A DNA stretch of 64,000 nt from a bacterium (GTDB lineage Bacteria; CAIWAD01): contig JAUIFJ010000001.1 in the NCBI GenBank assembly GCA_030429345.1, forward strand, positions 62,001-126,000. The letters run 5' to 3'. Positions 3,393-62,381 of the stretch are shown here, one piece after another (position 1 is the first letter of the stretch; every line of letters starts with the position of its first letter). The translations under genes and the position numbers were made by a program. The notes under the pieces were generated by a model. That model made no database searches and was not told the origin of the DNA. It saw only the letters and a list, made by a program, of their open reading frames with translations.

Positions 3393-6300
3393 TCAGCAGG
3401 GTCATCTTCCTTGCCGCGCTGAAATCCCCCGCATGCAGCCTTAGCAGGTAGATGCCGCTGGAAAGCGCGGAGGCGTCGAAGCCCTGCGTGTGCTCTCCGG
3501 CGGGAAGCCGCTCTCCCTGAAGCAGACTGGCCACCTTCTGCCCTTGCAGATTGTAGACCTCCAGCCGTACCGTCCGGCTTTCGGCCAGGGAGAAGGCGAT
3601 GCGTGTCACGGGATTGAAGGGGTTGGGAACCGGCGCCTCCAGGGCGAAGCTTGCCGGTCGCGTATTCTCGTCTACGGAGACGGCGCCCACATGAAGATGC
3701 ACCGCCACACGGACCGGCTCCTGGCCCGTGTTGGCGCTCAGGACGACTTCGCCCTCGTAGTCGCCTTCCGGCAGCAGGCCGTTGATGGAATTGTAGACCT
3801 GCATCGGCAGATCGATCCCGCTTCCACCGGCCAGGATGCCGCTGCGCTGGGGCAGCTGCAGCCAGATCGGCGGCAGGATGTGTACGGCGTAGTCGTTCAC
3901 CGAACGCTCCATATGCTGTACGACAAATCCCAGGTCGTTTTCCGGTCCCTGCAGGCCGACGGTTCCCGAATCGCTGTCATCATCCGTAGCAGCCATGTCG
4001 CCATACTGCAGCGTGATCCGTCCGTTGGCCTCGAGGATGATCTGGAAAGTGAAGGGCCCGCCGTACTGTCCCTGGTTGTAGTGCGGCGCCTCGACCCAGG
4101 AAACGACCAGGCTGTCCCCGGACGCGTGGCGGAAGACATGCCCCTCCAGGTTGTCGTCTCCAAGAAGGTCGTCCCACCAGCCGCAGATCGCGTTCTCCGG
4201 CGCTTGCCCGCTCGGCATGGCGCCGCCGCTGTTGTTCCAGTGGTTCGCGTCATCCGTGAAGGAGATGTAGCCGTTGGGAGCGATGTAGTACGAGTCGTGC
4301 GTTTCCCCGTAGAAGGGGAAAGCGAAGGGAAGATCGAAGGGGCCGACGGGCGCGTCGTTCTGGACGAAGGCGACGGCGCCTCCCTCCTGCGTGATGTCCC
4401 GGAAAGCGACCTCCGGCCCGCCGGGCTCCTCGCTGTCGAGCCAGGTGTAGCCGAAGATGTCCGGTCCGCCGTCTTCGCGCGAACCGGAAGGACGCAGGGG
4501 CGTCAGCCCCTCGGGCAGCCAGTCGCCCAGGCTTTCCGCGCGCGCGCTCCAGCTGAGCAGTCCGTCGCCCGTGTTCGAAAAGGTGATGCTTCCCTCCGCC
4601 GTGTCCTCTTCGTCCGGGCTCAGCGTGAACCACAGGGGCGCGGGATCCACGGACAGGACCGCGTCCCCGGCAATGGAGGCGTCGCGGGTCGTGAAGCGGA
4701 TCGCGCGGACATCCGTGATCGGCTGGGCGGTCGGGTCCCAGGAATTGTAGTTGGTCAGGGTCAGCCCGACCCTTCCCGTGTGATCCTCGATGCCGATCGT
4801 GCAGTAGGGAAAGTCCTGGGCGTTCGTCTGGCTGTTGTTGAAGAGCTGGTATTGCATCACGAACTCGCCGTCACCGGTCGGGGTCGGGTAGACGGCGGGG
4901 TCGAGCAGGATCAGCTGGAAGGTGTTGATCTGGTTGTTCGAGTTTGTTCGCATGCGGTACCACTCGACGACGAAGAGGCCGGATTCGGGGAAAGAGGCCG
5001 TCGCCACCTGGGCATCGCCGATCAGCTTGTGGTCGTCCCACATGACGCCGATCATCGCTTCCGGCCCCATGCCGACGGGCATGTAGTGGTTGCGGAAGTC
5101 GCACTCCAGGTGCGCGTTGGTCCCGAAGGCCACGAAGCCGTTGGAGCACACGCTCATTTCATCATAGCTGCGGCCGTAGTACGTGAAGGGGAAGGGCAGA
5201 TCGACCATACGCGCGTCGTCCTGCTCGTCACCATGGTCGTCGAGCACCAGCTCGATTCCCGAACCGCCGGCGTTCGGCGCGATCTCGTTCCAGCCGTACT
5301 CCAGGGCCAGCGGCCAGTCGTCGTCGTCCTCGTAGGCATAGTAGCCGTAGGCGTCCGGACCGGTAGGCTCGGTGGGCTGTCCCAGTCCGACGCGCACGGG
5401 CAAATGCATCTCGCTCCAGGGGCCCTCGGGCGAGGTCCAGCGCACAAGCAGCGACTCCGTGTACCCGGGGACGGCATCCCCGGAGGCGGTCACATAGAAC
5501 TGCAGGTCCGTCGTCGTCTCGCCCGCGGCAAGCGTGAGACTTTCCGTGCCGCTGGCGACACTGAGCGGAGAACCCTCCGGAAAGCCGGACAGGATCTCAA
5601 GGTCCACCGCGTCCGCCGTTCCCGCATTGAGCACCTCGAAGGCGATCAGCTCCGTGTTCCCCGGCTCCAGGGTCTGCTGCCAGGGGTTGTGATCCAGCAG
5701 GACAAGGTGCGGACTGGCCAAGTCGAGTTCCTCGGAGAACTCCGCCAGCACCGTCTCGTCGCTGCGCAGCGTCAAGCGCAGGTCCAGGAGGTCGTGATCC
5801 ACCAGGGTCGGGAAGAGACTGAAGACGAAAGGACTGTTGATGAAGGCCGCCTCGGCCGGCCCCAGGTCAGGCAGGGGCTGTGTGGCGGTCGTGACGACAC
5901 CCGCCCCGTCTTCCAGCTCCAGCTCCAGGCTGAGGTTGCTCAGCGGCATGCCCATCGCCTGGACGCGCACGTTCAGCTCATAGTCGCCGCCGGGCACCAG
6001 CGGGCCGGTGTGATCCAGAACCTGCAGGGCCGTCACCTCGGGCAGCAGGTCGCCGCCGATCGACAGGTCCTCGAGGGCCGGCAGGAAGTCGGCCTTGCTG
6101 GCCGTGATCTGTAAAGGCTGGAACTCGTCCAGCTCGGGCAGGGCAAAGGTGATCCATCCTTCGGCATCGCTCGTGCCGAGCAACTGGAAGCCTCCCGGCT
6201 GGCTCAGGCAGACCGCCGCTCCCTCGACGGGTGGCCCCAGGGCATCGATCACCTGCAGGCTGAGCGAGGTGGCATTGGAGGCGAGCACATCCGGAGTTTC

Positions 6301-8097: not shown

Positions 8098-11000
8098 CTA
8101 TTTCAGCAGCAGGACCCGTTGTGTCCGGCTCTCACCCTGGACCTGCAGGCGCAGGAAGTAGACGCCGCTGGCCAGTGAACTGCCGTCGAAGCGTGCCAGG
8201 TGCCTGCCCGCCGGCAGTTCCTGGCTCTCGACCAGGCTCAGCACCTTGCGTCCCTGGATGTTGTATACATCCAAACTCGCCCGCCGGGCGGCCGGCAGCA
8301 CGAAGGGAACCGTGGTCACGGGGTTGAAGGGGTTCGGCCAGGCCTTGCCCAGCACGATGCCCTCCGGCAGGGAGGGCGTCTCCCCGGCGGAGGTCGTTCC
8401 AAGACTCAGGCCGATGGGAAGAAACAGCTCTCCTCCGCTGGCGGAACCAATGCGCAATTCGGCCATGTAGTCGCCGGTGGGCAGCAGTTCCTGCACAGGC
8501 GCGTTGTGAGCATGCAACACGATGAAGCCGTCTTCCATGGGCGGCACGATCCCGCCGGAATCCTCCAGCTGCAGCCAGAAGGGCGGCAGCACGCGCACGG
8601 TATAATTGTCCGCCACCTGGCGCAGGTGGTGGATCACGAAACCGCTCTCGTCATTCGGGCCCTGCAGGCCCATGGTCCCGGAATCGCTGAGCGGGTTCCC
8701 GCTGTTCATGTCGGCCCACTGAATGGTGATCCGGCCATTGCGCTCAAGGATGATCTGGAAGGTGAAGGGCCCGCCGAAATCCTCGGGATCGAAATGCGCC
8801 GCCTCGACCCAGCTCACGACCAGGCTGTCTACTCCCGCGCGGTAGCTGACCTGGTCGTTCATCGCCTCGTTGTTCAGCAGGTCGTCCCACCAGCCGGCGA
8901 TCGAGTTCATCGGCGCGTCCTCGTGGGGCATGCCGACGGCATTGTACCACAGGTTGCGCGTGTCGCTGAAACTGATCCAGCCGTTGGGGTTGATGTAGAA
9001 CTCATCAAAGAGCTGCCCGTAGAAGGGGAAGTCGAAATCCAGCGCGAAGGGACCCGCCGTGGCATCGTTGTGCTCGAACTCGACCGCCGTATCCGTCTCC
9101 GCGACCGGAATCCAGGAGAAGAGCGGTCCGCCCTCTTCTTCCGAGTCGATCCAGGTATAGCCGGCGCTGTCCGGGCCGCCCTGGTCGCGCCCCGTGTTCC
9201 GCGCCATGCCCAGCTGCGGCCAGTCCTGCGGCACGGCGACGGAGGCGCTCCAGTTCAGGAAGCCCTCGCCGGCATTGTGGAACCAGACCGTGTCGCGGGC
9301 GCTTTCGGTCTCCGTGTCACTCAGCGTGAAGTGCAGGCCGGCCGTCAACTCCTCGAGCAGACCGTCGGCGCCGCCCTCCACCGGTCGCACCGTGAAGAGG
9401 ATTGCCCGGCCGCCGTTCTCGTCGATCTCCGTGGCCGTGTCGTTCCACAGGTTGTAGTTGACCAGGGTCATGCCTCGTGTCGCCGTGTGATCCTTCAGGC
9501 CGATCGTGCAGTAGGGATAGTCCTGGTCGTTGTCCTGTGTGTCATCGAAGTCCGCGTACTGGTAGATGAACTCGCCCTCGCCGCTTTCGTTGGGCCAGTG
9601 CGCCGGGTCGAGCAGGATCAGCTGGAAGGTGTTGATGCCGTTGCTCGAGTTGGCCCGCATGCGGTACCACTCGACGACATAGCGATGGTTGGTCTCGTCG
9701 TACCAGGTGCAGACTTCCGTATTCCCTCCCAGGTAGTGGTCGTCCCACATGACGGCCAGCATGGGTTCGGGCCCCATGCCGATCGGCAGGTAGTGGTTGC
9801 GGAAATCGGTTTCCAGGTGCGCCCAGGGGCCGAAGCTGACGAAACCGTTGCTGCAGACGCCCATCTGAGTGTATTCCTCTCCGTAGAGGCGGAAGGGAAA
9901 GGGCAGGTCGACCAGGGCGGCGTCATCCTGCTCGTCGGCGAAATCCGTGAGCTCGAGCGCCGTGCCCGGCCCGCCCTCTTCCGGGGCGATCTCGACCCAG
10001 TCGTATACGGGCGCCAGGGGGTGGTTGTCCGTATCCTCGATGGCAAAATAGCCGTAGGCATCGGCGCCTGTCGCCTCGCTTTCCGTGCCGACTCCCGTGC
10101 GCAGGGCGACCTGGAAGTGGCCGCGAATGCCGTTGGAATCGGTCCAGTTCACCTTCAGGAACCCCTGCTGACCGTTCCAGGCTTCCTCGTGCGCCGTCAC
10201 CTCGAAGACCAGCTGCTCGCTGGCTTCTCCCTCGTTGAGCTCCAGTTCGACCGGGGTCTCGTCCACGGAGAACCAGGCGCTTCCGCCGAAGCTCGGCGTG
10301 AGTGTGAGACTCGCCGGGCGGTTGCCCGTGTTGCGTACGGCAATGCGCAGATCGTCGCTGTCGCCGGGCTCCAGGGTCAGGCCGTCTACATCCGGATCCT
10401 CCACCGTGAGCCAGGGTCGGCTGAGCGTCGTCTCGAAGCCCAGTTCCGTCGTGTCTCCAGCAGCAGCGTGCCAGGCGCGGAAGAAGAGGGCCTCGCGGTC
10501 CGAGATCGAATCGGCGAGTGTCACCTGCAGAATGCCGCTGACCAGGGAGCCCCCGGCGGGAATCGCGTCAATGGCGAGCACCTCCGGGGAAACAACCGCG
10601 CTGCCCGGCTCGCACTCGAGGAACAGCGTGCCGGCCGGCGTGTCGATGTCCGCGTTGTTGTCCAGGTCCAGCACCAGGTCGTGCGTCGAGCCCGGCAGCA
10701 GCTCCTCGGCCGTTCCTCCGTCCCACAAAGCGTTGAGAAGGGCCAGGCCTCCGCCCACCTCCTGCACGCTGCGGTCCTCCAGGGCCGGCACGTAGTTGTC
10801 GCGCGTGGCCGTGATCTGCAGGACCTGGCCGGTGTCCACGGCATCCAGCGGGAAGGCCGAGCGGCCGCTGGCGTCACTCAGCTGCACCAGCTGCAGGCCG
10901 CCGGCCTGGTAGAGGCAGATCGCCGCGCCTTCCACGGGCTGACCCTCGGCATCTGTCACACGCAGGTCGAGGAAGCCGGCGTCGGTGGCGACGACTTCCG

Positions 11001-37706: not shown

Positions 37707-38519
37707 TTATTTCACCAGGACCATCTTGCGGGTTTCGCTGTAAGCGCCCTGGCTCAGGGTGTACAGGTAGACTCCGCTGGCCAGGTTGCTGCCGTCGAAC
37801 GTCAGCTGATGCTCGCCGCTGGACAGCAGCCCGTCGGCCAGCACAGCGACTTCGCGCCCCTGCAGATCATGCACGCGCAGGCTGGCTTCGCCGGTTTCCG
37901 GCAGGCGGAAGGAGATCGTGGTGCTTGGATTGAAGGGGTTCGGTGCGTTGGCCGCCAGCTCGAAACCGGAAGGCAGGTCGTCCGTGTCCGCGGTTGCCGG
38001 GCAAAGAGTAAAGCAGACTTCCCACGGAATGTCCTGCGTCATCAGCTGGCAGGAGGCGTCCCTTCCATTCATGACTCCGAAGCTCACCGTGTAGACTCCT
38101 GCGGGCAGACACTCGGGGGGATTGTTCTGGGGAGGCATGAAGCTGTCCCCATGGTCCTTGTTGACCACATCCGGCTGCGACCAGCCGCCGGTGCAGGTGT
38201 TGGGGCAGATGCCGGGATCGTCATCCCCCTCGAAGGAAATGTTGGGTCCCTGCACTCCCGAAAAGACCGTGTTCACGTTGCCGGAACCGCAGCTGTTCAG
38301 TTCCCAATCGCAGCATTCCTCGTCCAGAGTGAAGGTCAGATCGAACCAGGTGAAGGGAACGCTGACCGTACCGCTCAGGCAATGGTCGCGGGAAGCGTCC
38401 AGGTGGATGGTTTCGGTGGCCGGCTGCAGTTCTCCATTCACCAGCAGATTGACGCCGGTGAAATCGGAAGCGCTCGCGCAGAGCGGGGCCAGGGCCAGAC
38501 ACAGAAGGGTCTTCTTCAT
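37707..38519 (-). CDS. small secreted protein with T9SS sorting domain
   Basis: A 270-residue protein. ATG at 38519 (GAGG upstream) begins a signal peptide ending near ASA. The central 160 residues hold about ten cysteines, including CCDW, CGSG, CPNTC and FTLCP, suggesting disulphide bonds in an exported domain; no family is recognised. The C-terminal 80 residues are a T9SS type A sorting domain: NPFNPSTTISF, LRVHDLQGREV and a GVYLYTL strand. It is likely secreted and anchored on the surface. The frame extends upstream to 38729 without coding support. Confidence 0.82.
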   Translation of the reverse strand: MKKTLLCLALAPLCASASDFTGVNLLVNGELQPATETIHLDASRDHCLSGTVSVPFTWFDLTFTLDEECCDWELNSCGSGNVNTVFSGVQGPNISFEGDDDPGICPNTCTGGWSQPDVVNKDHGDSFMPPQNNPPECLPAGVYTVSFGVMNGRDASCQLMTQDIPWEVCFTLCPATADTDDLPSGFELAANAPNPFNPSTTISFRLPETGEASLRVHDLQGREVAVLADGLLSSGEHQLTFDGSNLASGVYLYTLSQGAYSETRKMVLVK

Positions 38520-46463: not shown

Positions 46464-47459
46464 TTACATTTGCTCGCGGAAGGCTTCGCCGTCCAGGCTC
46501 TCTCGCAGCTCGCGGATCTTGCGCGCCATCCGTTGCCGCAGTTCGGGCGGATGAAGGATTTCACAGCTGTCGCAGAAGGGCAGGAGCATTTTCAGCACCC
46601 AGTTGCCGTTGGTTTCTTCCATGGTGAGAACGCTCTTGCCCTCCACCTCTTCCATTCCCTGCCAGCCCTCTTCGTGAGCCAGACGCTCCAGGGTGCCGCC
46701 CAGACGGATGCGGACCGTCATCGACGAAGCGCTGCCCTGGAAGGTGAAGTGGCCCTTGTCGATGTAGCGGCTTTCATCGAAATCGGCGGGACGCTCGACC
46801 TTCCGTTGGCCCAACTCGACAGAGGACATGCGGTCGACGCGGAAGATGCGCTCGTCCTCCACGCCGTGATCATAGCCGATCAGGTACCAGATGCCGTTGC
46901 GGCAGACGCAGTGCCAGGGGTCGATGTCGCGCTCGCGGAAGCTGTCGCTGTTGACGCTGTAGTACTGCATGCGCAGGCCGCGCCCCTCTTCCGTGGCGCG
47001 CAGCACCTGCGTGATCCGTTCGTCCTCGTCCCGCGCCGTCGGCTGGTAGCGGATCCGCTGCTGGATGCCTTCCAGCTCCACATTGCCGCCGCCGGCGAGC
47101 TCGGCGCGTATACGGTTCAGCGCGCCCTCCATGCCGGGCAGGTAGTCCCGCAGGCCGGTGGCCTTCAGGTACTCCCAGCCGGTCAGCAGGGCCGCCAACT
47201 CGGGCTGGGTAAAACGCATCACCTTCTCGAAGAGGCCGCCCGTGTAGACCTGGATCCGGTCGTGATCCAGGTAGATGTCGACCAGGTCGCCTTCGCCCCA
47301 CCAGCCGTAGGACATGGAGCTGATCAGGCGAATGTCCGACAGCAGCTGGTTGACGCTGATGCCCAGCTCGCGGCAGACCACGTCGACACGCTCGCCGCTG
47401 CGGCGGTTCAGGTAGGGAATCAGGTTGAAGATCCGGTTGAGGCCGCGCACGCCGCTCAT
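46464..47459 (-). CDS. WYL-domain transcriptional regulator (PafC-like)
   Basis: A 331-residue regulator with an N-terminal winged-helix part (RLNRIFNLIPYLN...LGISVNQLLSDIRLI), a WYL domain (about 135-245; IDPWHCVCRNGIWYLIGYDH with the eponymous WYL) and a C-terminal WCX extension. It overlaps the next gene upstream (47456-48460) by four bases. In Actinobacteria PafB/PafC form a heterodimer that switches on DNA-damage genes independently of LexA. Here the pair is intact, but the function in this group is inferred. Confidence 0.82.
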   Translation of the reverse strand: MSGVRGLNRIFNLIPYLNRRSGERVDVVCRELGISVNQLLSDIRLISSMSYGWWGEGDLVDIYLDHDRIQVYTGGLFEKVMRFTQPELAALLTGWEYLKATGLRDYLPGMEGALNRIRAELAGGGNVELEGIQQRIRYQPTARDEDERITQVLRATEEGRGLRMQYYSVNSDSFRERDIDPWHCVCRNGIWYLIGYDHGVEDERIFRVDRMSSVELGQRKVERPADFDESRYIDKGHFTFQGSASSMTVRIRLGGTLERLAHEEGWQGMEEVEGKSVLTMEETNGNWVLKMLLPFCDSCEILHPPELRQRMARKIRELRESLDGEAFREQM

Positions 47460-48460
47460 TCTGTCGCCTCCGTATACAGGGCCTCTGCGCGCAGCAGCTT
47501 TGCGCGCAATTCCTCCTTCATGCCTTCAGGCTCTTCCAGGCGCGCGCGGGCGCCCCAGCCCAGCAGCCATTCCAGGAAGGCCTGCGGCCGACCGACGCGG
47601 ACGCGGGCGCGCAGGTCGCGGCCCAGCTCCTCGAACTCGGCCTTGCGTCCCAGGCGGCGACGAGCCAGCTGGGCCACGCCGGCATCGAAGTGCACGCTGA
47701 CCGTCGGCCCTTCGCCCAGGCCCAGATCCCAGCTGTCGTCGGCGAACCAGCCCTCCAGGTCGACCTGCGGCCGGTCCTGGTAGGTCTGGCCGGTCAGCTC
47801 CAGCTTCTGGATGCGTGATACACGAAACTCTCGCGGCGCCTCGCGCAGCTCGCACCAGGCCAGGCAGTACCAGTGGCCGTAAAGGAACTTCAGCCCGTAG
47901 GGGTGGATCACGCGCTCCTGGTTCTGGCCGTCCGGCCGCCTGTAGAGGATGCGACAACTCTCCTTGCCGATGACGCAAGCACCGAGTTGCTGCAGAATCT
48001 CTTCTTCGCGCTCGCTGCGCCCCTGTGGCAGAATGTGTACGACCTCGCTCAGGCTGCCGCCGGCAGCGGCGCTCTTCAGCTTGTCCAGGGTATCGGCGAG
48101 GATCTCGCGAAAGGGAAAACTGCCCAGCGACTGCAGCTGCTCGCCGAGCCAGGTCAGCGCGCGCAGTTCCTCATCGTTGAACTCGAGCCGGCGGGCGAAG
48201 ATCTCCCCGGGCTTGATCCGGTATACATAGTGCAGGTTGCCGCTGGGGTCCTCGCCCTCCATCACTTCCATGTGGATCGGCACGCCCAGCTCGTCGAGCA
48301 GTCGCCGGTCGCGCTGGAACTTCTTTCGCGCCGCCTCGCCCGTGCCATAGGCGGGAATGTCCTGCTGGATCTGCTCCAGCGTCCGCCCGTAGCGGTAGTT
48401 GAGCAGACAGGCCACCAGCGAAAGCTGCCGCTCCTGGGCCTTGACGGAACTTCGACTCAT
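47456..48460 (-). CDS. WYL-domain transcriptional regulator (PafB-like)
   Basis: A 334-residue regulator. ATG at 48460 has AGAGG upstream. N-terminal HTH (about 10-60, LLNYRYGRTLEQIQQDI), then a WYL domain (about 165-255; YGLKFLYGHWYCLAWCE) and a WCX C-terminus. It precedes and overlaps the PafC-like gene, as in the pafBC operon. The paired gene order is good support for a heterodimer. WYL domains are thought to bind nucleic-acid ligands such as single-stranded DNA. A small gene lies divergently close by at 48647-48805. Confidence 0.82.
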   Translation of the reverse strand: MSRSSVKAQERQLSLVACLLNYRYGRTLEQIQQDIPAYGTGEAARKKFQRDRRLLDELGVPIHMEVMEGEDPSGNLHYVYRIKPGEIFARRLEFNDEELRALTWLGEQLQSLGSFPFREILADTLDKLKSAAAGGSLSEVVHILPQGRSEREEEILQQLGACVIGKESCRILYRRPDGQNQERVIHPYGLKFLYGHWYCLAWCELREAPREFRVSRIQKLELTGQTYQDRPQVDLEGWFADDSWDLGLGEGPTVSVHFDAGVAQLARRRLGRKAEFEELGRDLRARVRVGRPQAFLEWLLGWGARARLEEPEGMKEELRAKLLRAEALYTEATE

Positions 48461-48597
48461 GGACACCTCTGGTTTCAGGATGCGAACCGGGGAAGAGGCT
48501 CGCTCACCGTGCAAAATTGCGGAGCCTTCGCACTTCGGCAAGAGCGGCGGAGCGCCATCGAAAAGGATTCTTCGCGACGCACGCAGAACAGAATCGG

Positions 48598-48621
48598 GGC
48601 GGGCCCGCGCCCGGACCCGCC
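48598..48621 (-). terminator. hairpin downstream of the 52-codon gene
   Basis: A 10-bp stem (48598-48607 with 48612-48621). In minus-strand RNA all ten positions pair because one becomes a U-G wobble; in plus-strand RNA that position is a C-A mismatch. This favours a minus-strand role 25 bases after the small gene. There is no strong T-tract. Confidence 0.4.
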
Positions 48622-48646
48622 CACTCACGAAAGGAGAACACGGATG

Positions 48647-49027: not shown

Positions 49028-51532
49028 GTGAATCAGACACCCTTCATCCAGAAGATGTCAAGCCCATTGCTTGCCATCCTTCTTGCTGCAAAACCCTTGT
49101 GGGGTCTTGTTCTACATGTACCCTCCGAGTATTCGACCATCCAATCTGCACTGGATTTGTCCTTACCAGCCGATACGATTCTTGTTGCGCCCGGCAGCTA
49201 CCAGGAAACCTTGGTTACACCAGGTCACACTCTCTCAATCGCATCGCATTTTCTAGGAACAAACGACCCGGAGTTTATCGAGGAAACAATACTTGATGGA
49301 GCATTTCAAGGTTCGTGCATTACATCAAGTATTGGAACACTTGATACACTGTTTGTAACTGGATTAAAGTTAGTCAGAGGTCATGGAAGTTTTAGTCCAA
49401 ACAGATCTGGTGGAGCAATACACCTAAATGAAGAGGCAAATATTCACATAGACAACTGCATTCTGGAGAACAATAGAAGCGAACACGACGGAGCGATACT
49501 TTTTGGAGACTTTGGAGTGCAGTTGGGTTCGGTTGAAATCTCAAACACCAGAGTTCGGGTGTATTCTGATGGAAGTATAAACCTTTTCGATGGGTACCAA
49601 CTCGCAAGCAACAGTTCAAGGAGCTTCCGGCTAAGCAACGTCTATGTGACTGGAATGGACTCACCGACCCTGATTGCCCTCTTGCTCTCTGATGAGTTAG
49701 TCATAGATGGCTTGGCTGTCGATTCTGTTGATACTCCAGATAGCGAGTTTATCAAGCCAATGCTGACTCTTGCCAGTTTTGGAAACGTCGAAGCAGACAG
49801 CATTTCTATCAGCAGCTGCAATTCACAATCAGGGGGGTTTATTGAAATCGCCTCGCTGGATGGACATGTATACCTCAATGATCTGACTATGAATGCATGC
49901 TCTTCTTTCGCCAACTGCGAGATTGGCGCGGCTTCCTTGCGCGTTTCAGCCGACTCCCTGTTTGCGGACAATATCAAGCTCCACGATCTATACTCTGTCA
50001 GCGGATACTCTGCAGGAACCATTTCTGCGGACTTGTTCGGCCAAATCACGAATCTCGAAGTACAGGGTTGTCACAGTGGCGCCTTGCCTCCTCAAGTAGT
50101 TGGTGGCTGCGTAAATGGCAAAACATTGCGTACTACAAACTGTAATATTCAGTACTCAAGGTTTTTGAATAACACATCAAGCATCTTTGCTCTTCATCAA
50201 ATAGGAAACATGCAATGGCTTGAGGAATCCGGGCTTTGCCTGGAATACATCATTACACACCCTGATGCGAACTGGTTGATCAACAATTGTCAATTTCAGG
50301 GAAACTCGGCCCACGATTCAGACAACTACTCCAGCGCATATGTGTTAAGAGCCGCAAATGTGGGCAGAGCGCTATACGTATCACTCCCCCCACAACCCGA
50401 CCGTGTGAGCTTCCAGCTGGATAGCTGCCTGTTCCAGGACAACTTCATAAACAACCCTGCACCAGAAGGGCCTACAGCCAGCAACCTGGAAACCAGGAGT
50501 GTTGGTTCAACCGTTGAGATCAATTGCGCTACGCAGAGTGGCCACTTCGCCCCACGGATTACAGTTTCAAACAGCCTCTTCGAAAACAATGACGATGGCG
50601 CACTTGCCGTTCTTGGGTATAGACGCCTAGTTCTTGAGAATGTGTCAATATCTGCCTGCGACCGTATGGGCATTCTCTGTTTTGGCGATTCCACTGATAT
50701 TCGGAACGCATTTATCTCGGGAGTGGATGCATGGAGAGAAGATTATAGCTATCCATATACAACCAGCTCATATCAGGGAGCTCTTCTGGCACATTCCAGC
50801 ATTTCAACAATTGTTAGTAACTCCACGGTGCATGACAACCATGTGAGTAATCTATTTACCTTTAGTCAAACCGCGGATCACGCAATTCAGAATACTCTCC
50901 TCATGTCCAATGAATACAATAGCCTATTCTTCCCTGGCGAGGACTCGCTTGAGATCAACTACCCAACGATCAATTACTCACTAATGAATTTCCTGTTCAC
51001 TGGCCAGGGAAACATTGTATCCTTCGAGTATCCATTCAGCAGTGTGTATGGACCTCCATTCCTGAATGAGAACTCTCAGGCAATTGATGCAGGCGATCCA
51101 CTTGAAGCATTCAACGATCAGGAGGATCCGGAGAATCCTGGCTTCGCCCTCTGGCCCAGCCAGGGTGGGCTGCGCAATGACATCGGCTTCACGGGCGGTC
51201 CCTGGGCCCAAGGGCTGGATCATCTGGTGGCAGTGGAAGAACCCGCAGCGGAAACCCCTTTGCGTCCGTCGAGCCTGCGCCTGGAACCTGCCGCGCCCAA
51301 TCCCTTTAATCCGGTGACACGACTGAAGCTTCACTTGGACCAGGACGGTCCAGCACTGGCGCGGCTGTATAATATTCGTGGCCAGTTGGTCCGAACTCTT
51401 CTCGATGAGGACCTGATTGCCGGAACTCACGTACTACGCGTAGACGGAAGCCGCCTGGCCAGCGGAGTATACATCGTCGCCGCGCAGAGTGGCGGGAAGC
51501 ACCAGCAGCAGAAGATTCTGCTATTGAAGTAG
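49028..51532 (+). CDS. T9SS-sorted right-handed beta-helix protein (copy 1, AT-rich body)
   Basis: An 834-residue secreted protein. GTG at 49028 or ATG at 49055 gives a signal peptide. After it comes a beta-helix entry motif (VPSEYSTIQSALDLS...DTILVAPGSYQET) and then repetitive short strands with N/S turns over most of the length. The C-terminal 80 residues are a T9SS sorting domain (NPFNPVTRLKL, LYNIRGQLVR, GVYIVAAQ). Body codon use is AT-rich (many ATA, TTA, AGA codons), unlike the last 400 bases, which are GC-rich like the genome. The function is probably surface or polysaccharide-related; no catalytic motif is seen. Confidence 0.82.
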   Translation: MNQTPFIQKMSSPLLAILLAAKPLWGLVLHVPSEYSTIQSALDLSLPADTILVAPGSYQETLVTPGHTLSIASHFLGTNDPEFIEETILDGAFQGSCITSSIGTLDTLFVTGLKLVRGHGSFSPNRSGGAIHLNEEANIHIDNCILENNRSEHDGAILFGDFGVQLGSVEISNTRVRVYSDGSINLFDGYQLASNSSRSFRLSNVYVTGMDSPTLIALLLSDELVIDGLAVDSVDTPDSEFIKPMLTLASFGNVEADSISISSCNSQSGGFIEIASLDGHVYLNDLTMNACSSFANCEIGAASLRVSADSLFADNIKLHDLYSVSGYSAGTISADLFGQITNLEVQGCHSGALPPQVVGGCVNGKTLRTTNCNIQYSRFLNNTSSIFALHQIGNMQWLEESGLCLEYIITHPDANWLINNCQFQGNSAHDSDNYSSAYVLRAANVGRALYVSLPPQPDRVSFQLDSCLFQDNFINNPAPEGPTASNLETRSVGSTVEINCATQSGHFAPRITVSNSLFENNDDGALAVLGYRRLVLENVSISACDRMGILCFGDSTDIRNAFISGVDAWREDYSYPYTTSSYQGALLAHSSISTIVSNSTVHDNHVSNLFTFSQTADHAIQNTLLMSNEYNSLFFPGEDSLEINYPTINYSLMNFLFTGQGNIVSFEYPFSSVYGPPFLNENSQAIDAGDPLEAFNDQEDPENPGFALWPSQGGLRNDIGFTGGPWAQGLDHLVAVEEPAAETPLRPSSLRLEPAAPNPFNPVTRLKLHLDQDGPALARLYNIRGQLVRTLLDEDLIAGTHVLRVDGSRLASGVYIVAAQSGGKHQQQKILLLK
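51121..51316 (+). repeat. 196-bp direct repeat, copy 1 (linker and sorting domain start)
   Basis: Matches 53572-53767 with roughly eight mismatches over 196 bases, a far higher identity than the rest of the two genes. It encodes the linker EDPENPG..LWPSQGGLR through the NPFNP of the sorting domain. It marks the border between the AT-rich body and the GC-rich 3' end of copy 1. Confidence 0.88.
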
Positions 51533-51538
51533 GCGATC

Positions 51539-53983
51539 ATGCCAAAACTTGTGAACAGAATGTGGGTTCGAATCCTGATTCTTTTGGGATTCGGACCTCT
51601 CTCTTTCGCGGCGACCGTGCTAGTTCCCCAGGAGTTCCCGACGATTCAGTTGGCCTTCGACGCCAGTTCTTCAGGGGACACCGTACTTGTGGCTCCCGGC
51701 GTATACCAAGAGCACTTGATCGCCCCCAACCACGGCATCCTGTTGACCTCGTATTACCCAATGACTCGGGATTCCAGCGACTGGTTGAGCACTGTCCTAG
51801 ATGGCGGCAGCACTGGAACTGCCCTTGAAATTGAGACAACGCAAGGAGAGTGGTTTCGATTGAAGGGCTTCGTTGTGAGAAATGGCAGCGGATCTGAACA
51901 GGCGGGGGGCGTTCACTGCGCTTGCCAGGAAGACGAGATTGGCTGTAGGATCCAACTTGAGTCTGTCATGTTCTCAGAGAACGTATCTCACGGTTGGACT
52001 ACTGGAGCGCTTCATGTTTCTGGAAACACAAGAAGCCTGGTGTTGAATAACTTGGTGTTCGTTAATCCCGAGTTCGGCAATCTGTCTTTGGTATCCACCT
52101 TGTCCGAGTTGGCACTGATCGATTCGGTTTCATTTTATGGCAACGGATTGACGGGTGACCCTGGCGGATTCAGTGCGGACTCTGTTTCTTGCTCAAGTAT
52201 ACACGTTGAGGACTTCCTCTTGGAACAATACGGGAAGTTCAGGGTTGGCGGATTCCACTTCGCTCAAGTCGATAGACTCGTAGTTCAGAATAATGTGTCC
52301 CGTTCTGGGCGTATTGCCTCACTTGGCAGTTCGGAGGGAACGTTACGAATCCGGAACCTGAAGTTTACAGACAACAGGTTGGAAAGAAACATAAGTGACG
52401 ATCGCGACGAGATCTCTCTGCAACTGAGCGCTGCCCATATCGACATCGACACATTGATCGTAGAGCGCAATAAAACGGCTATCGAAGGCATTTTGTCCAT
52501 CCAGCAATCCCAGGACGGCGCACTTCAGAATCCGCCCGGCATCGTCAACAATTTGATCTTCCGAGACAACCAGGCGGGGGATTCCGTGAATTACGACATG
52601 GGCTGGAACGGCCGGCTGGCCGAGATCTGGCGCTGCGACATCCGTAACAGCTTCTTCCAGAACAACCTCTCCGTCCTGCCGATCACGCAGCCCGGATCAG
52701 GATGGTACGCCCGAGGGGGCGCCCTATTTTTCTGGCAACAGGAAAACGACACCGTCACCATCGAGAACACCGAATTCAGCAACAATCTCATGCTGGATTT
52801 CGATGACTACTCCACGCTCCCGCTTGAGCAAATCGGGGGAAATTTCGGTCGGGCACTTTACATCCATTTCTCTGAGAGTGCCCCACTGACTCTTCGCAAC
52901 TGCGTCTTCCATGATAACCGCCAGAACCAGCATTGCCCGGAAACGGACTACTTCTACAGCCTGGGCGCCACCGTATACGCACACATGATGGTCGGCACAG
53001 CCACGCTGATCGTCGAGGACTGCTCCTTCACGGACAACGACGACGGCGGCCTGCAAACCTACCAGCTCGGCACGACTCTCGTGCGCAACAGCATCTTCCG
53101 GGACAATGCCCGCTACGGCCTGTACCTGGCCGGCAACCGCTCGCAGATCCACAATGTGAGCGTCAGCGGCACCGTGGCGCAGGACATCACCAATACATTC
53201 CTGCCCAGCAAGCAGGCGCCGATCCTGCAATTCACCCAGCCGCACCCGCCGGTCATCCGCAATGTGACCGTGACCGGGAACGAGACGGAATCCCTCGTCC
53301 ACGCCAACTACCAGCCCAGTCCGCAGACCCTCATTGAAAACAGCCTCTTCCGGGGCAACACCTACCAGCAGATCCAGGCCGCCGTCGGGGATCCGGAAGA
53401 AGACCTGCCGGCCCTGTTCCGCTATTGCCTGCTGCCCGAGGAGGTCCCCGTCGGGGAGGACAATCTCGTTGGCGAGGATCCGCTCTTCCATCAGGAGCTG
53501 GGCGCGCCCTGGCTGGCTTCGGTCTCTCCCTGCGTCGATGCGGGGGATCCGGACTCCGAGCGCAACGACCGGGAGGATCCGGAGAATCCTGGCATCGCCC
53601 TCTGGCCCAGCCAGGGTGGGCTGCGCAATGATATCGGCTTCACGGGCGGTCCCTGGGCCCAAGGGCTGGATCATCTGGTGGCGGTGGAAGAACCCGCAGC
53701 GGAAACCCCATTGCGTCCGTCGAGCCTGCGCCTGGAACCTGCCGCGCCCAATCCCTTCAACCCGGCGACTTGGCTGCGCTTCCATCTTCCCCAATCGACA
53801 GATGTGCAGCTGGATGTCTACAATCTGCGGGGGCAACGGGTTCGCCAACTGCTTCATGCCGAGCTGCAGGCCGGAGAGCATTCCCTGCTCTTCGACGCCG
53901 GAGAGCTGGGCAGCGGCCTGTATCTGCTGCGCTTGGAATCCGGCGGATCGGTTGCCACCGGCAAGGTGATGCTGATTCGCTGA
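51539..53983 (+). CDS. T9SS-sorted right-handed beta-helix protein (copy 2, mosaic composition)
   Basis: An 814-residue paralogue that starts six bases after copy 1. It has a signal peptide (cleavage near FAA, residue 25), the same beta-helix entry (VPQEFPTIQLAFDASSSGDTVLVAPGVYQEH), a long repeat body and a sorting domain (NPFNPATWLRF, VYNLRGQRVR, GLYLLRLE). The first kilobase is AT-richer and the second half is GC-rich, with the switch around 52.5 kb. The bodies of the two copies differ widely while the linker and sorting domain start are nearly identical. This suggests module swapping onto a conserved export tag. Confidence 0.83.
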   Translation: MPKLVNRMWVRILILLGFGPLSFAATVLVPQEFPTIQLAFDASSSGDTVLVAPGVYQEHLIAPNHGILLTSYYPMTRDSSDWLSTVLDGGSTGTALEIETTQGEWFRLKGFVVRNGSGSEQAGGVHCACQEDEIGCRIQLESVMFSENVSHGWTTGALHVSGNTRSLVLNNLVFVNPEFGNLSLVSTLSELALIDSVSFYGNGLTGDPGGFSADSVSCSSIHVEDFLLEQYGKFRVGGFHFAQVDRLVVQNNVSRSGRIASLGSSEGTLRIRNLKFTDNRLERNISDDRDEISLQLSAAHIDIDTLIVERNKTAIEGILSIQQSQDGALQNPPGIVNNLIFRDNQAGDSVNYDMGWNGRLAEIWRCDIRNSFFQNNLSVLPITQPGSGWYARGGALFFWQQENDTVTIENTEFSNNLMLDFDDYSTLPLEQIGGNFGRALYIHFSESAPLTLRNCVFHDNRQNQHCPETDYFYSLGATVYAHMMVGTATLIVEDCSFTDNDDGGLQTYQLGTTLVRNSIFRDNARYGLYLAGNRSQIHNVSVSGTVAQDITNTFLPSKQAPILQFTQPHPPVIRNVTVTGNETESLVHANYQPSPQTLIENSLFRGNTYQQIQAAVGDPEEDLPALFRYCLLPEEVPVGEDNLVGEDPLFHQELGAPWLASVSPCVDAGDPDSERNDREDPENPGIALWPSQGGLRNDIGFTGGPWAQGLDHLVAVEEPAAETPLRPSSLRLEPAAPNPFNPATWLRFHLPQSTDVQLDVYNLRGQRVRQLLHAELQAGEHSLLFDAGELGSGLYLLRLESGGSVATGKVMLIR
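53572..53767 (+). repeat. 196-bp direct repeat, copy 2
   Basis: Partner of 51121-51316, with mostly silent differences. The high identity restricted to this segment points to recent duplication or gene conversion between the adjacent genes. Confidence 0.88.
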
Positions 53984-54011: not shown

Positions 54012-54329
54012 CTACCCCGCCAGCTGGCGGACCTTGGCCAGGAGCTGTTCCTTGCTCTGCAGGCCCATGCTCTGCTCGATGGGGCGGCCGTCCTTGAAGT
54101 AGATCAGGGTGGGAATGCTGCGCACGTTGAAGCGCATGGCCAGGTCGCGGTTGTTGTCCACGTCCACCTTGCCGATGCGCAGGGGAAGGGAGGAGTCCTG
54201 GCTGATTTCTTCCAGCACCGGGGTCAGCGCCTTGCAGGGACCGCACCACTCGGCCCAGAAGTCTACAAGAACCAGACCCTTGGATGTCTCTTCGTCGAAA
54301 TTGCTGATGGTGAGATCTTTCAGGCCCAT
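54012..54329 (-). CDS. trxA: thioredoxin
   Basis: A 105-residue thioredoxin with the WCGPC active site (C29, C32), the cis-proline segment SIPTLIYFKDG and the full fold. ATG at 54329 is preceded by GGGGG. It is cytoplasmic (no signal peptide) and reduces protein disulphides using thioredoxin reductase, which is not in this window. It converges with the beta-helix gene; a small GGCCGG/CCGGCC hairpin (53984-54003) lies between them. Confidence 0.95.
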   Translation of the reverse strand: MGLKDLTISNFDEETSKGLVLVDFWAEWCGPCKALTPVLEEISQDSSLPLRIGKVDVDNNRDLAMRFNVRSIPTLIYFKDGRPIEQSMGLQSKEQLLAKVRQLAG

Positions 54330-54532
54330 TCGTCCCCCGTTCCTGGATTGGCAGCAAGGCCCGAAATGTAGGACAAGGCTCGACAGAGAGGCAAGCGAAA
54401 AAGGAAATGTGTCACACTCGTCCTGCATGACCGATCGTGAACAGGGAGGCCTCTTCGACGGACCTGTTTCGACGGACCTGCCGCAAGGGAACCCAAGGCA
54501 GCCGATGTGAGACAAAGCCTGCCCTGCCGCCG

Positions 54533-55639
54533 CTAGGGGACCAGGCGGCCCAGCTCCGCGCCGAGCAGCTCCAGGGCTTCGGCGAAGTCCGCCTCCGGCG
54601 CGCCCAGGCCGATGCGCAGGCTTCCCGGCGCCTCGAAGAAAGCGCCGTCGACGACCAGCAGGCTGTGCTCCTCTTCCAACCGGCGACAGGTGTCGGCAAG
54701 ATCCGGCCGACCCCGGACTTCGAACTGGCAGCAAAGGCCGGCGCTGCGCAGGGAGAGGCGGCCCAGCCCCGTGTGATCCGCCCAACTGGAAAGGCGCTGC
54801 CAGTTCGCCTCCATGCGCGGCCGCACCGGGTCCAGGATGGCGTCCAGGCGCTCGGGCTCTTCGATCACCTGGCGCATGGCATTTTCGGTCACGAAGGGGG
54901 CGACCACGTTGACCAGGTCGTTGATGCGATCCGCCCGGGAAACGAAATCCGCGTCCTGGCTGAGCAGAATGCCGGCTCGCAAAGTGTTCAGTCCCCAGGC
55001 CTTCGTCAGGCTGAGCGTGGTGGCAATTCCCGGATGCTTGAGGAAGCTCAGTTCACGCTGGCCGGCGGGGCAGAAGGGCATGTAGACTTCATCCATCAGC
55101 ACCTGCAGGCCCGTCTCTTCGATGATCTCGACCAGGCCCGAAAGCTCGGCCTCGCTCAGCCGGTTGCCCCCGGGGTTGTAGAGATTGCTCAGCACCGCCG
55201 CCTTCGCTCCCTTGCGCGCTTCGTCGCGCAGCCGATCGAGCGGCAGGCTTTCGGTGGAAAACGCGTCGCGCGGAATCCGCTGCACCAGGCAGCCCAGCAG
55301 CTCGGGCAGCTTGCGCAGCGGTTCGTAGACGGGGGTTTCGACCAGCACGCGGTCGCCCGCCTCGACCATGGCGCGCAGGGCCAGCAGGTTGATGCCGCTG
55401 GTGCCCAGGCCCGTCAGCACGCCTTCGGGCCTTGCGCCGGTCCAGGCGGCAATCGCGGCCTGCAGGCGCGGGTAGCGGTCCACATTGTGCTCGGCGGGGC
55501 TGCCAAGGAAGTTCGGCTGCTCGTCGATCAGCCCTTCGGCCAGCACATCCAAAGCCGGCATGCCCGACTGGGCCAGGTTGTAGCGCACCTGGGGAAAGCG
55601 CTTGGCCCAACGCATGTAAGCCACGGTCCAGTCCTTCAT
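54533..55639 (-). CDS. PLP-dependent class I/II aminotransferase
   Basis: A 368-residue fold-type I enzyme. Predicted PLP lysine is K213 (SLTKAWGL), with N155 in NPGGN, D183 and Y186 in MDEVYMPF and the arginine R221. The sequence is short compared with aspartate aminotransferases and lacks the N-terminal arm, similar to some beta-lyase or transaminase subgroups. The substrate cannot be assigned. The ATG overlaps the cutA stop (ATGA), so the two genes form an operon. Confidence 0.83.
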   Translation of the reverse strand: MKDWTVAYMRWAKRFPQVRYNLAQSGMPALDVLAEGLIDEQPNFLGSPAEHNVDRYPRLQAAIAAWTGARPEGVLTGLGTSGINLLALRAMVEAGDRVLVETPVYEPLRKLPELLGCLVQRIPRDAFSTESLPLDRLRDEARKGAKAAVLSNLYNPGGNRLSEAELSGLVEIIEETGLQVLMDEVYMPFCPAGQRELSFLKHPGIATTLSLTKAWGLNTLRAGILLSQDADFVSRADRINDLVNVVAPFVTENAMRQVIEEPERLDAILDPVRPRMEANWQRLSSWADHTGLGRLSLRSAGLCCQFEVRGRPDLADTCRRLEEEHSLLVVDGAFFEAPGSLRIGLGAPEADFAEALELLGAELGRLVP

Positions 55640-61604: not shown

Positions 61605-62381
61605 ATGGATCGCCTGAGCCGGGCCGACTACCGCGGCCTGCTGGACCTCTCATCCCAGGGGAAGCGGCGCGAGCGGGGACTGCTGCTCGTGCCGGGCATC
61701 AAGTGTGTCCGCGAGGTCCTGCTGAGCGACTGGTCCGTGAGACAACTGCTTTTCACGGAAGCCGGCGCGGATTCGATCGCGCAGGCCCTGCCGGAGCGTT
61801 GCACAACGGATGCGCCGATGCTTGTCCGCGACAGCGAAGCGGCCAAACTGGCGGGGCAGAGCACTGCGGAGGGCGTGATCGCGCTGGTCGAGAGGCCGCC
61901 GTCGGTCTTCGAGGGCGCCTGGGAAGATCCATCCGCGCCCCAGCTGCTGCTGGACGGATTGAGCGACCCGGGCAACCTGGGCGCGATCCTGCGCAGCGCC
62001 GCCTGGTTCGGCGTAACGCGCATTGCACGACGAGGCGGTTGCGCTCCGGACTCGCCGCGGGCCGTGCGCTCCTCCATGGGCACGCTGTTCCGCATGCGCA
62101 GGCTGGCCGGCATCGAGGACCCGGACCTGGAAAGGTTGAGTGCGAAGCGGCGCCTGGTCCTGCTGGACGGCGAGGGCGACGAAAGCCTGGAGTCCTTCCG
62201 TTTCCATGAAGGAGACATGCTGGCCCTGGGCAGCGAAAGCCACGGCAGCAGCCTGCCGGGAAACTGGGCCCTGGTGCGCCTGGCGATCCCGGGAGGGGCG
62301 GGCGTCGAGAGCCTCAACGTGGGACACGCCTTCGCGATGGCCGCCTGGGAACGCGTGAGACAACTCGGTCCCTGGGCGTGA
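61605..62381 (+). CDS. SpoU/TrmH-family RNA 2'-O-methyltransferase
   Basis: A 258-residue RNA methyltransferase with the knotted SPOUT fold: SpoU motif 1 DPGNLGAILRSAAWFG, motif 2 LALGSESHGSS and motif 3 IPGGAGVESLNVGHAFAMAAWE. An N-terminal substrate-binding domain (about 1-95) is present. The target (tRNA or rRNA) is not fixed. It overlaps the CPBP gene by four bases (GTGA). Confidence 0.9.
   Translation: MDRLSRADYRGLLDLSSQGKRRERGLLLVPGIKCVREVLLSDWSVRQLLFTEAGADSIAQALPERCTTDAPMLVRDSEAAKLAGQSTAEGVIALVERPPSVFEGAWEDPSAPQLLLDGLSDPGNLGAILRSAAWFGVTRIARRGGCAPDSPRAVRSSMGTLFRMRRLAGIEDPDLERLSAKRRLVLLDGEGDESLESFRFHEGDMLALGSESHGSSLPGNWALVRLAIPGGAGVESLNVGHAFAMAAWERVRQLGPWA

Follow-up and report, generated by a model that had tools for sequence, protein, structure and literature searches.

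Gene conversion and concerted evolution of tandem paralogues leave short, sharp-edged tracts with high synonymous identity between adjacent, co-directional copies. Modular secreted proteins are reportedly also renewed by recombination at conserved sequence, as in T6SS effector displacement in Vibrio cholerae. The closest described counterparts of the genes reported here are the gingipains and HagA, surface proteins of Porphyromonas gingivalis: they are T9SS cargo with a conserved C-terminal domain, their adhesin modules and alleles vary between strains, and domain rearrangement and allelic exchange of their modules are described, with gene conversion via homologous recombination being invoked (PMC5266723).

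Here, we analysed a window of 64,000 nucleotides (positions 62,001 to 126,000 of contig JAUIFJ010000001.1, GenBank assembly GCA_030429345.1), in which two neighbouring genes show a related, though differently distributed, pattern. Unlike the P. gingivalis case, a tail made of helix end, linker and tag is common to neighbours within one genome, and the bodies stay apart. Compared with concerted evolution of tandem paralogues, the process is limited to the export tail and, in another pair of the same genome (C46), joins bodies without detectable homology; compared with the V. cholerae effectors, homogenisation affects the constant part. With respect to the T9SS type A sorting domain family TIGR04183, the tags of both genes are ordinary members, matching above cut-off in a genome with SprA, PorV and PorU, and the tag itself is unremarkable. 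Beyond PMC5266723, no description of conversion limited to T9SS cargo tails was found in the literature searched, most subscription journals lying outside that search.

Two tandem cargo genes and their setting

The pair and its parts are arranged as follows (window coordinates):

49028–51532, plus strand: gene 1, 834 aa, right-handed beta-helix protein ending in a T9SS type A sorting domain; the start codon is GTG, with an alternative ATG start possible at 49055
49028–51090, plus strand: AT-rich beta-helix body of gene 1, GC 0.46–0.48, GC3 0.44–0.51
51121–51316, plus strand: copy 1 of the block read as converted, comprising the beta-helix end, linker and first sorting-domain residues (ENPG...NPFNP)
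51293–51520, plus strand: T9SS type A sorting domain of gene 1, overlapped by the block over no more than its first ~25 nt
51539–53983, plus strand: gene 2, an 814-aa paralogue of gene 1 on the same strand, starting 6 bp downstream
51539–52450, plus strand: lower-GC first part of the gene 2 body, GC3 0.53–0.66; remaining body GC3 0.7–0.9
53572–53767, plus strand: copy 2 of the block read as converted, 97% identical to copy 1
53744–53971, plus strand: T9SS type A sorting domain of gene 2, a predicted beta-sandwich (aa 743–812)

Both gene products match the profiles PF13229 (gene 1, 30.3 bits; gene 2, 48.8 bits; cut-off 25.9) and TIGR04183 (27.6 and 32.3 bits; cut-off 23), with PF18962 scores of 26.9 and 26.5 falling just below the cut-off of 27. 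SprA (663.9 bits; cut-off 200), PorV (249.7; 90) and PorU (562.2; 420) are present in the same genome and also exceed their cut-offs in four relatives, indicating that the tags belong to a real T9SS. Judged by their sorting domains and the machinery of the genome, both genes encode T9SS type A cargo proteins, with export and cleavage being predicted. An AlphaFold model of the gene 2 product places the helix at residues ~26–628 and the sandwich at 743–812, the block (~aa 678–742) falling within the least certain stretch of the model, 635–742. Comparison of this model (mean pLDDT 61.8) with the PDB gave no match at E ≤ 0.001; the best beta-helix match of this low-confidence model was the PL6 lyase 7o77 (E 1.6e-3, TM 0.2), and its C-terminal sandwich resembled the Tannerella mirolase CTD 8qb1 with a probability of 1.00, but an E value of only 0.07–0.22.

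In five of the six slices scanned next to the pair, domains were regulatory or metabolic, with Pfam matches to an NAD-binding dehydrogenase-like protein, two WYL regulators, an aminotransferase and carbamoyl-phosphate synthase; the ORF of the sixth (54012–54785) was recognized by eye as a thioredoxin (WCGPCK). The two WYL-domain regulators adjoin each other on the minus strand at 46464–48628, pointing in the opposite direction to gene 1, and possibly regulate the pair. The nearest homologues in relatives are weak, reaching 37% at best for the regulator at 46464–47459 and 29% at best for the aminotransferase, and no cargo pair in conserved gene order was recognized in the regions fetched from relatives, which were inspected as an unannotated ORF listing.

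A sharply bounded block in divergent genes

A previous, sequence-only reading of this DNA had described two strongly differing bodies carrying a near-identical block of 196 bp, and both observations were borne out. The bodies of gene 1 and gene 2 are 37% identical at the nucleotide level and 26–32% identical at the amino acid level in different alignments (the two whole proteins aligning from end to end at 32% aa identity), while the two block copies are 97% identical over 194 nt (E 2.4e-89). The six differences within 192 aligned nt comprise five synonymous changes and one F/I change, and the maximal-segment score of the block was 171, as compared to at most 16 in 500 permutations. Its edges are sharp on both sides: nucleotide identity is 47–67% in the 120 nt upstream of the block, 93–100% from −180 to 0 relative to the tag match and 80% in the 0–30 bin, which is cut by the right edge of the block at about +25; in the same binned comparison, identity is 50–67% through the remaining tag and 40–55% beyond the stop.

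The block had also been taken for a nearly identical export tag, which is not the case. It ends ~25 nt inside the sorting domains, at NPFNP, so what the genes share is the end of the helix together with the linker rather than the tag; past the block, the two sorting domains are only 46% identical at the nucleotide level. Compared by sequence, these tag remainders appear no more alike than tags elsewhere (sorting-domain tag identity of different-contig pairs: mean 0.56, median 0.61, from an alignment other than that behind the 46% figure). The expectation that other cargo genes would have less similar sorting domains than this pair fails for the domains themselves, more similar ones being present elsewhere, and holds for the linker block. 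Elsewhere in the genome, the best match to the block reaches only 74%.

At amino acids common to both genes, the same codon is used at 65 of 182 positions in the body, 56 of 61 in the block and 10 of 29 in the tag (block versus body, p 1.8e-15). As synonymous codons are kept only in the block, protein-level selection alone is insufficient as an explanation, pointing to a two-sided gene-conversion tract.

Recurrence among neighbouring cargo genes

All 150 sorting-domain candidates scored, out of 183 first-look candidates, matched, giving a genome total of at least 150. Three further sorting domains lie on the minus strand of the window (3403–3627, 8110–8340 and 37719–37943), and one at C75:219261–219488 of the same genome (G000) sits within an open frame of 5166 codons. 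Among 147 usable tagged genes, tag identity exceeded 75% in 11 of the 34 same-strand pairs less than 5 kb apart, in none of the seven opposite-strand pairs, in 1 of 137 pairs at 5–50 kb and in 0 of 128 farther same-contig pairs (1/265 for the latter two together), and in ~0.1% of 10,425 different-contig pairs. Because part of the excess among neighbours is ordinary tandem duplication, we tested codon identity in the tail against that in the body. Tails were much younger than bodies in 8 of the 36 testable same-strand pairs less than 8 kb apart (46 pairs in all), namely C88, C8, C40, C4, C64, C75 (that is, gene 1 and gene 2), C56 and C46. Far same-contig pairs passed in 2 of 248 cases and sampled different-contig pairs in 23 of 3,000, the latter representing a background of ~0.8% that arises because tails have higher GC3 than bodies. 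No opposite-strand pair passed at p 0.001 (0/12, with all pairs counted, testable or otherwise), and the C64 pair is marginal, being barely above background (p 4.5e-4).

Tract edges vary by pair, with left edges at −180, −58 or 0 and right edges at +25, +150, +240 or beyond +320. A fixed junction common to the exchanges, as in a dedicated diversification system, was therefore not found; adaptive diversification of surface proteins is possible. The C4 pair contains a second two-sided tract, from 0 to about +150, and in the C46, C8 and C56 pairs identity extends past the stop codon. In C46 (G000 C46:89705–95519), two adjacent tagged genes have tails that are 97.6% identical over 377 nt including post-stop sequence, and their bodies gave no blastp match to each other at E 1e-5; unrelated bodies are thus apparently joined to near-identical tails.

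Since identity in C46, C8 and C56 runs into downstream DNA, unequal crossing-over or local duplication, by which neighbours would have exchanged or duplicated their ends, fits these three pairs as well as non-reciprocal conversion does. Overall, however, we regard this explanation as unlikely: the gene 1/gene 2 and C4 tracts each begin and end within the gene, an outcome not expected from a single crossover, and the tags of gene 1 and gene 2 beyond the tract differ.

Tails may also move over longer distances. The body of C13b (G000 C13:41200–45000) is 82% DNA-identical to that of C47a and its tail is of the C40 type, so that C13b is, on this comparison, a tail exchange between distant genes on different contigs; one of the AU tests on this exchange did not discriminate (block with the four-gene set, p 0.22). 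A separate gene, C1 (G000 C1:34400–38300), has a body that is 81% DNA-identical to C47b and its own tag downstream in another frame, and looks like a broken copy.

Beyond this genome, we compared 80 named loci (of 573 confirmed) and nine loci of relatives, comprising 108 same-strand pairs. In the sister genus G001, the genes C81 and C78, located on different contigs, have a comparable linker block, with a codon identity of 0.91, as compared to 0.39 in both body and tag. Among the 80 named loci, only L190 in Cloacimonadota (JAIPGP010000118.1) was a clear case (tag 0.95 versus body 0.45) and L221, a Balneolales locus, a moderate one (0.75 versus 0.35), the remaining loci being weaker or unremarkable. 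In the L190 array, four beta-helix/T9SS genes follow one another in tandem, and their tails are mosaic.

Base composition as a family trait

The composition changes that the sequence-only reading had placed near 51.1 kb in copy 1 and 52.5 kb in copy 2 are present, with GC rising from 0.43 to 0.60 in the former and GC3 from 0.55 to 0.7–0.9 near 52.4–52.5 kb in the latter. In gene 2, the change lies ~1.1 kb upstream of the block, so the step meets the block edge in copy 1 only. The paralogue family has 19 members in the genome, among them C1, whose tail is out of frame; five further members from the relatives G001 and G002 were analysed. Of 18 family members, 17 combine an AT-rich body with a GC-richer tail (tag GC3 above body GC3), with a family mean GC3 (n = 18) of 0.571 in the body and 0.726 in the tag. 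Other tagged genes (n = 114) average 0.783 and 0.833, respectively, the tag exceeding the body in 79 of 114; this comparison covers the 132 of 150 tagged genes with a sufficiently long body. Being a family trait, the step is no mark of recent import of gene 1 or gene 2, and composition as a sign of their recent acquisition was ruled out. AT-rich bodies are, as far as composition tells, an old trait of the family.

These data also bear on one of the two ideas offered by the sequence-only reading, namely that the bodies are AT-rich modules of foreign origin that became fused to a tag already resident in the host. Bodies are indeed AT-rich relative to the genome and tails less so, and apparently unrelated bodies with near-identical tails occur elsewhere (C46). 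Acquisition is nevertheless very improbable for this pair, as the homology of the two bodies, with each other and with the family, extends over their full length, 17 of 18 members have the same step, the tag itself is not common to gene 1 and gene 2, and the immediate neighbours gave metabolic or regulatory Pfam matches.

Conflicting histories of body and tail

Trees of 23 family members gave conflicting topologies for bodies and block. In the body tree, gene 2 is sister to C80_1 (SH-aLRT 99), its nearest relative by body (43–44% aa identity), and gene 1 groups with G1C34a, C80_2 and C47b (SH-aLRT 98); in the block tree, gene 1 and gene 2 fall together (SH-aLRT 94). In AU tests, body data rejected a clade of gene 1 and gene 2 (p 2.6e-5), and a grouping of gene 2 with C80_1/C40_1/C40_2 was rejected by block data (p 5e-75) and tag data (p 2.8e-4); gene 2 with C80_1 alone gave p 0.012 on block data. 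On tag data, two tests did not discriminate (gene 1 with gene 2, p 0.34; G1C81 with G1C78, p 0.33). As block and tag data both reject the body relatives, gene 2 has lost their tail type. Its block matches gene 1 and its tag matches neither gene 1 nor its body relatives, implying at least two events. In both genes, the block agrees poorly with the body clade, and a third gene may have been the source.

A scenario in which the genes arose by tandem duplication and the bodies then diverged rapidly, while purifying selection preserved the tail, would agree with the adjacency and common direction of the two paralogues and with tail motifs conserved at the protein level. Short of a hidden DNA- or RNA-level constraint on the block, it is scarcely credible given that synonymous codons are conserved in the block only and randomized on both sides, including in the functional tag, and that the closest body to that of gene 2 is found in C80_1 and not in gene 1. 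We consider a DNA- or RNA-level constraint on the block, such as a regulatory element or structured RNA, to be just as improbable. Across the 18 family genes, the second half of the block shows a codon identity slightly higher than expected (ratio 1.34), but high identity is confined to pairs, and the 74% best match outside gene 2 argues against a shared sequence constraint. Apart from that half of the block, no family-wide rise of codon identity was found in the tail (ratios 0.99–1.10 versus 1.11 in the body; 18 genes). Finally, the metagenome-derived genome is in 92 contigs, but an assembly or binning artefact can practically be dismissed, because the copies, separated by 2.45 kb within a contig of 346 kb, differ at six sites, and because similar patterns recur at several loci, each time with other edges.

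Together, these findings point to a real gene-conversion tract between old paralogues, one instance of a pattern that recurs where T9SS cargo genes lie next to each other. The alternative of recurrent conversion that had been offered from the sequence alone is thereby upheld with respect to the two-sided synonymous-level tract, the conflicting trees and the similar neighbour pairs, and fails with respect to its object, since the sorting domain is not converted.

Mechanism and implications

The underlying process is likely to be gene conversion by homologous recombination, in which adjacent cargo genes, here old tandem paralogues, pass on interchangeable tails. Gene 1 and gene 2 would be old, full-length paralogues in tandem, each with a beta-helix and a T9SS sorting domain, between which a tract of ~190–210 bp, spanning helix end, linker and first sorting-domain residues, would have been copied recently by homologous recombination. 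Copying may have run from gene 1 to gene 2, in reverse, or into both from a third gene. The edge motifs EDPENPG...ALWPSQGGLRND and NPFNP, presumably kept alike by protein selection, probably seeded the exchange as short stretches of homology; the bodies are too divergent for recombination. What the T9SS machinery recognizes is presumably the fold of the tail and not its exact sequence, which would make tails interchangeable and their exchange tolerated. The same process probably acts on further adjacent T9SS cargo genes, where the tracts span the linker only, the tag only, or both.

More broadly, we tentatively propose that in this FCB-group lineage and its relatives, T9SS tails form a shared, continuously homogenised pool that remains interchangeable while bodies diversify, with an occasional re-tailing of apparently unrelated bodies (C46) or a distant swap (C13b). 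If true, the export tail would be a semi-independent evolving unit and a recombination-driven route to new surface proteins. T9SS organisms can carry more than 100 cargo proteins with one kind of tag, and this genome has at least 150. If tails are homogenised independently of bodies, tag-based trees would not trace the history of the cargo, and new secreted proteins could arise by re-tailing. The pattern is also natural evidence on which segments of the tail are interchangeable.
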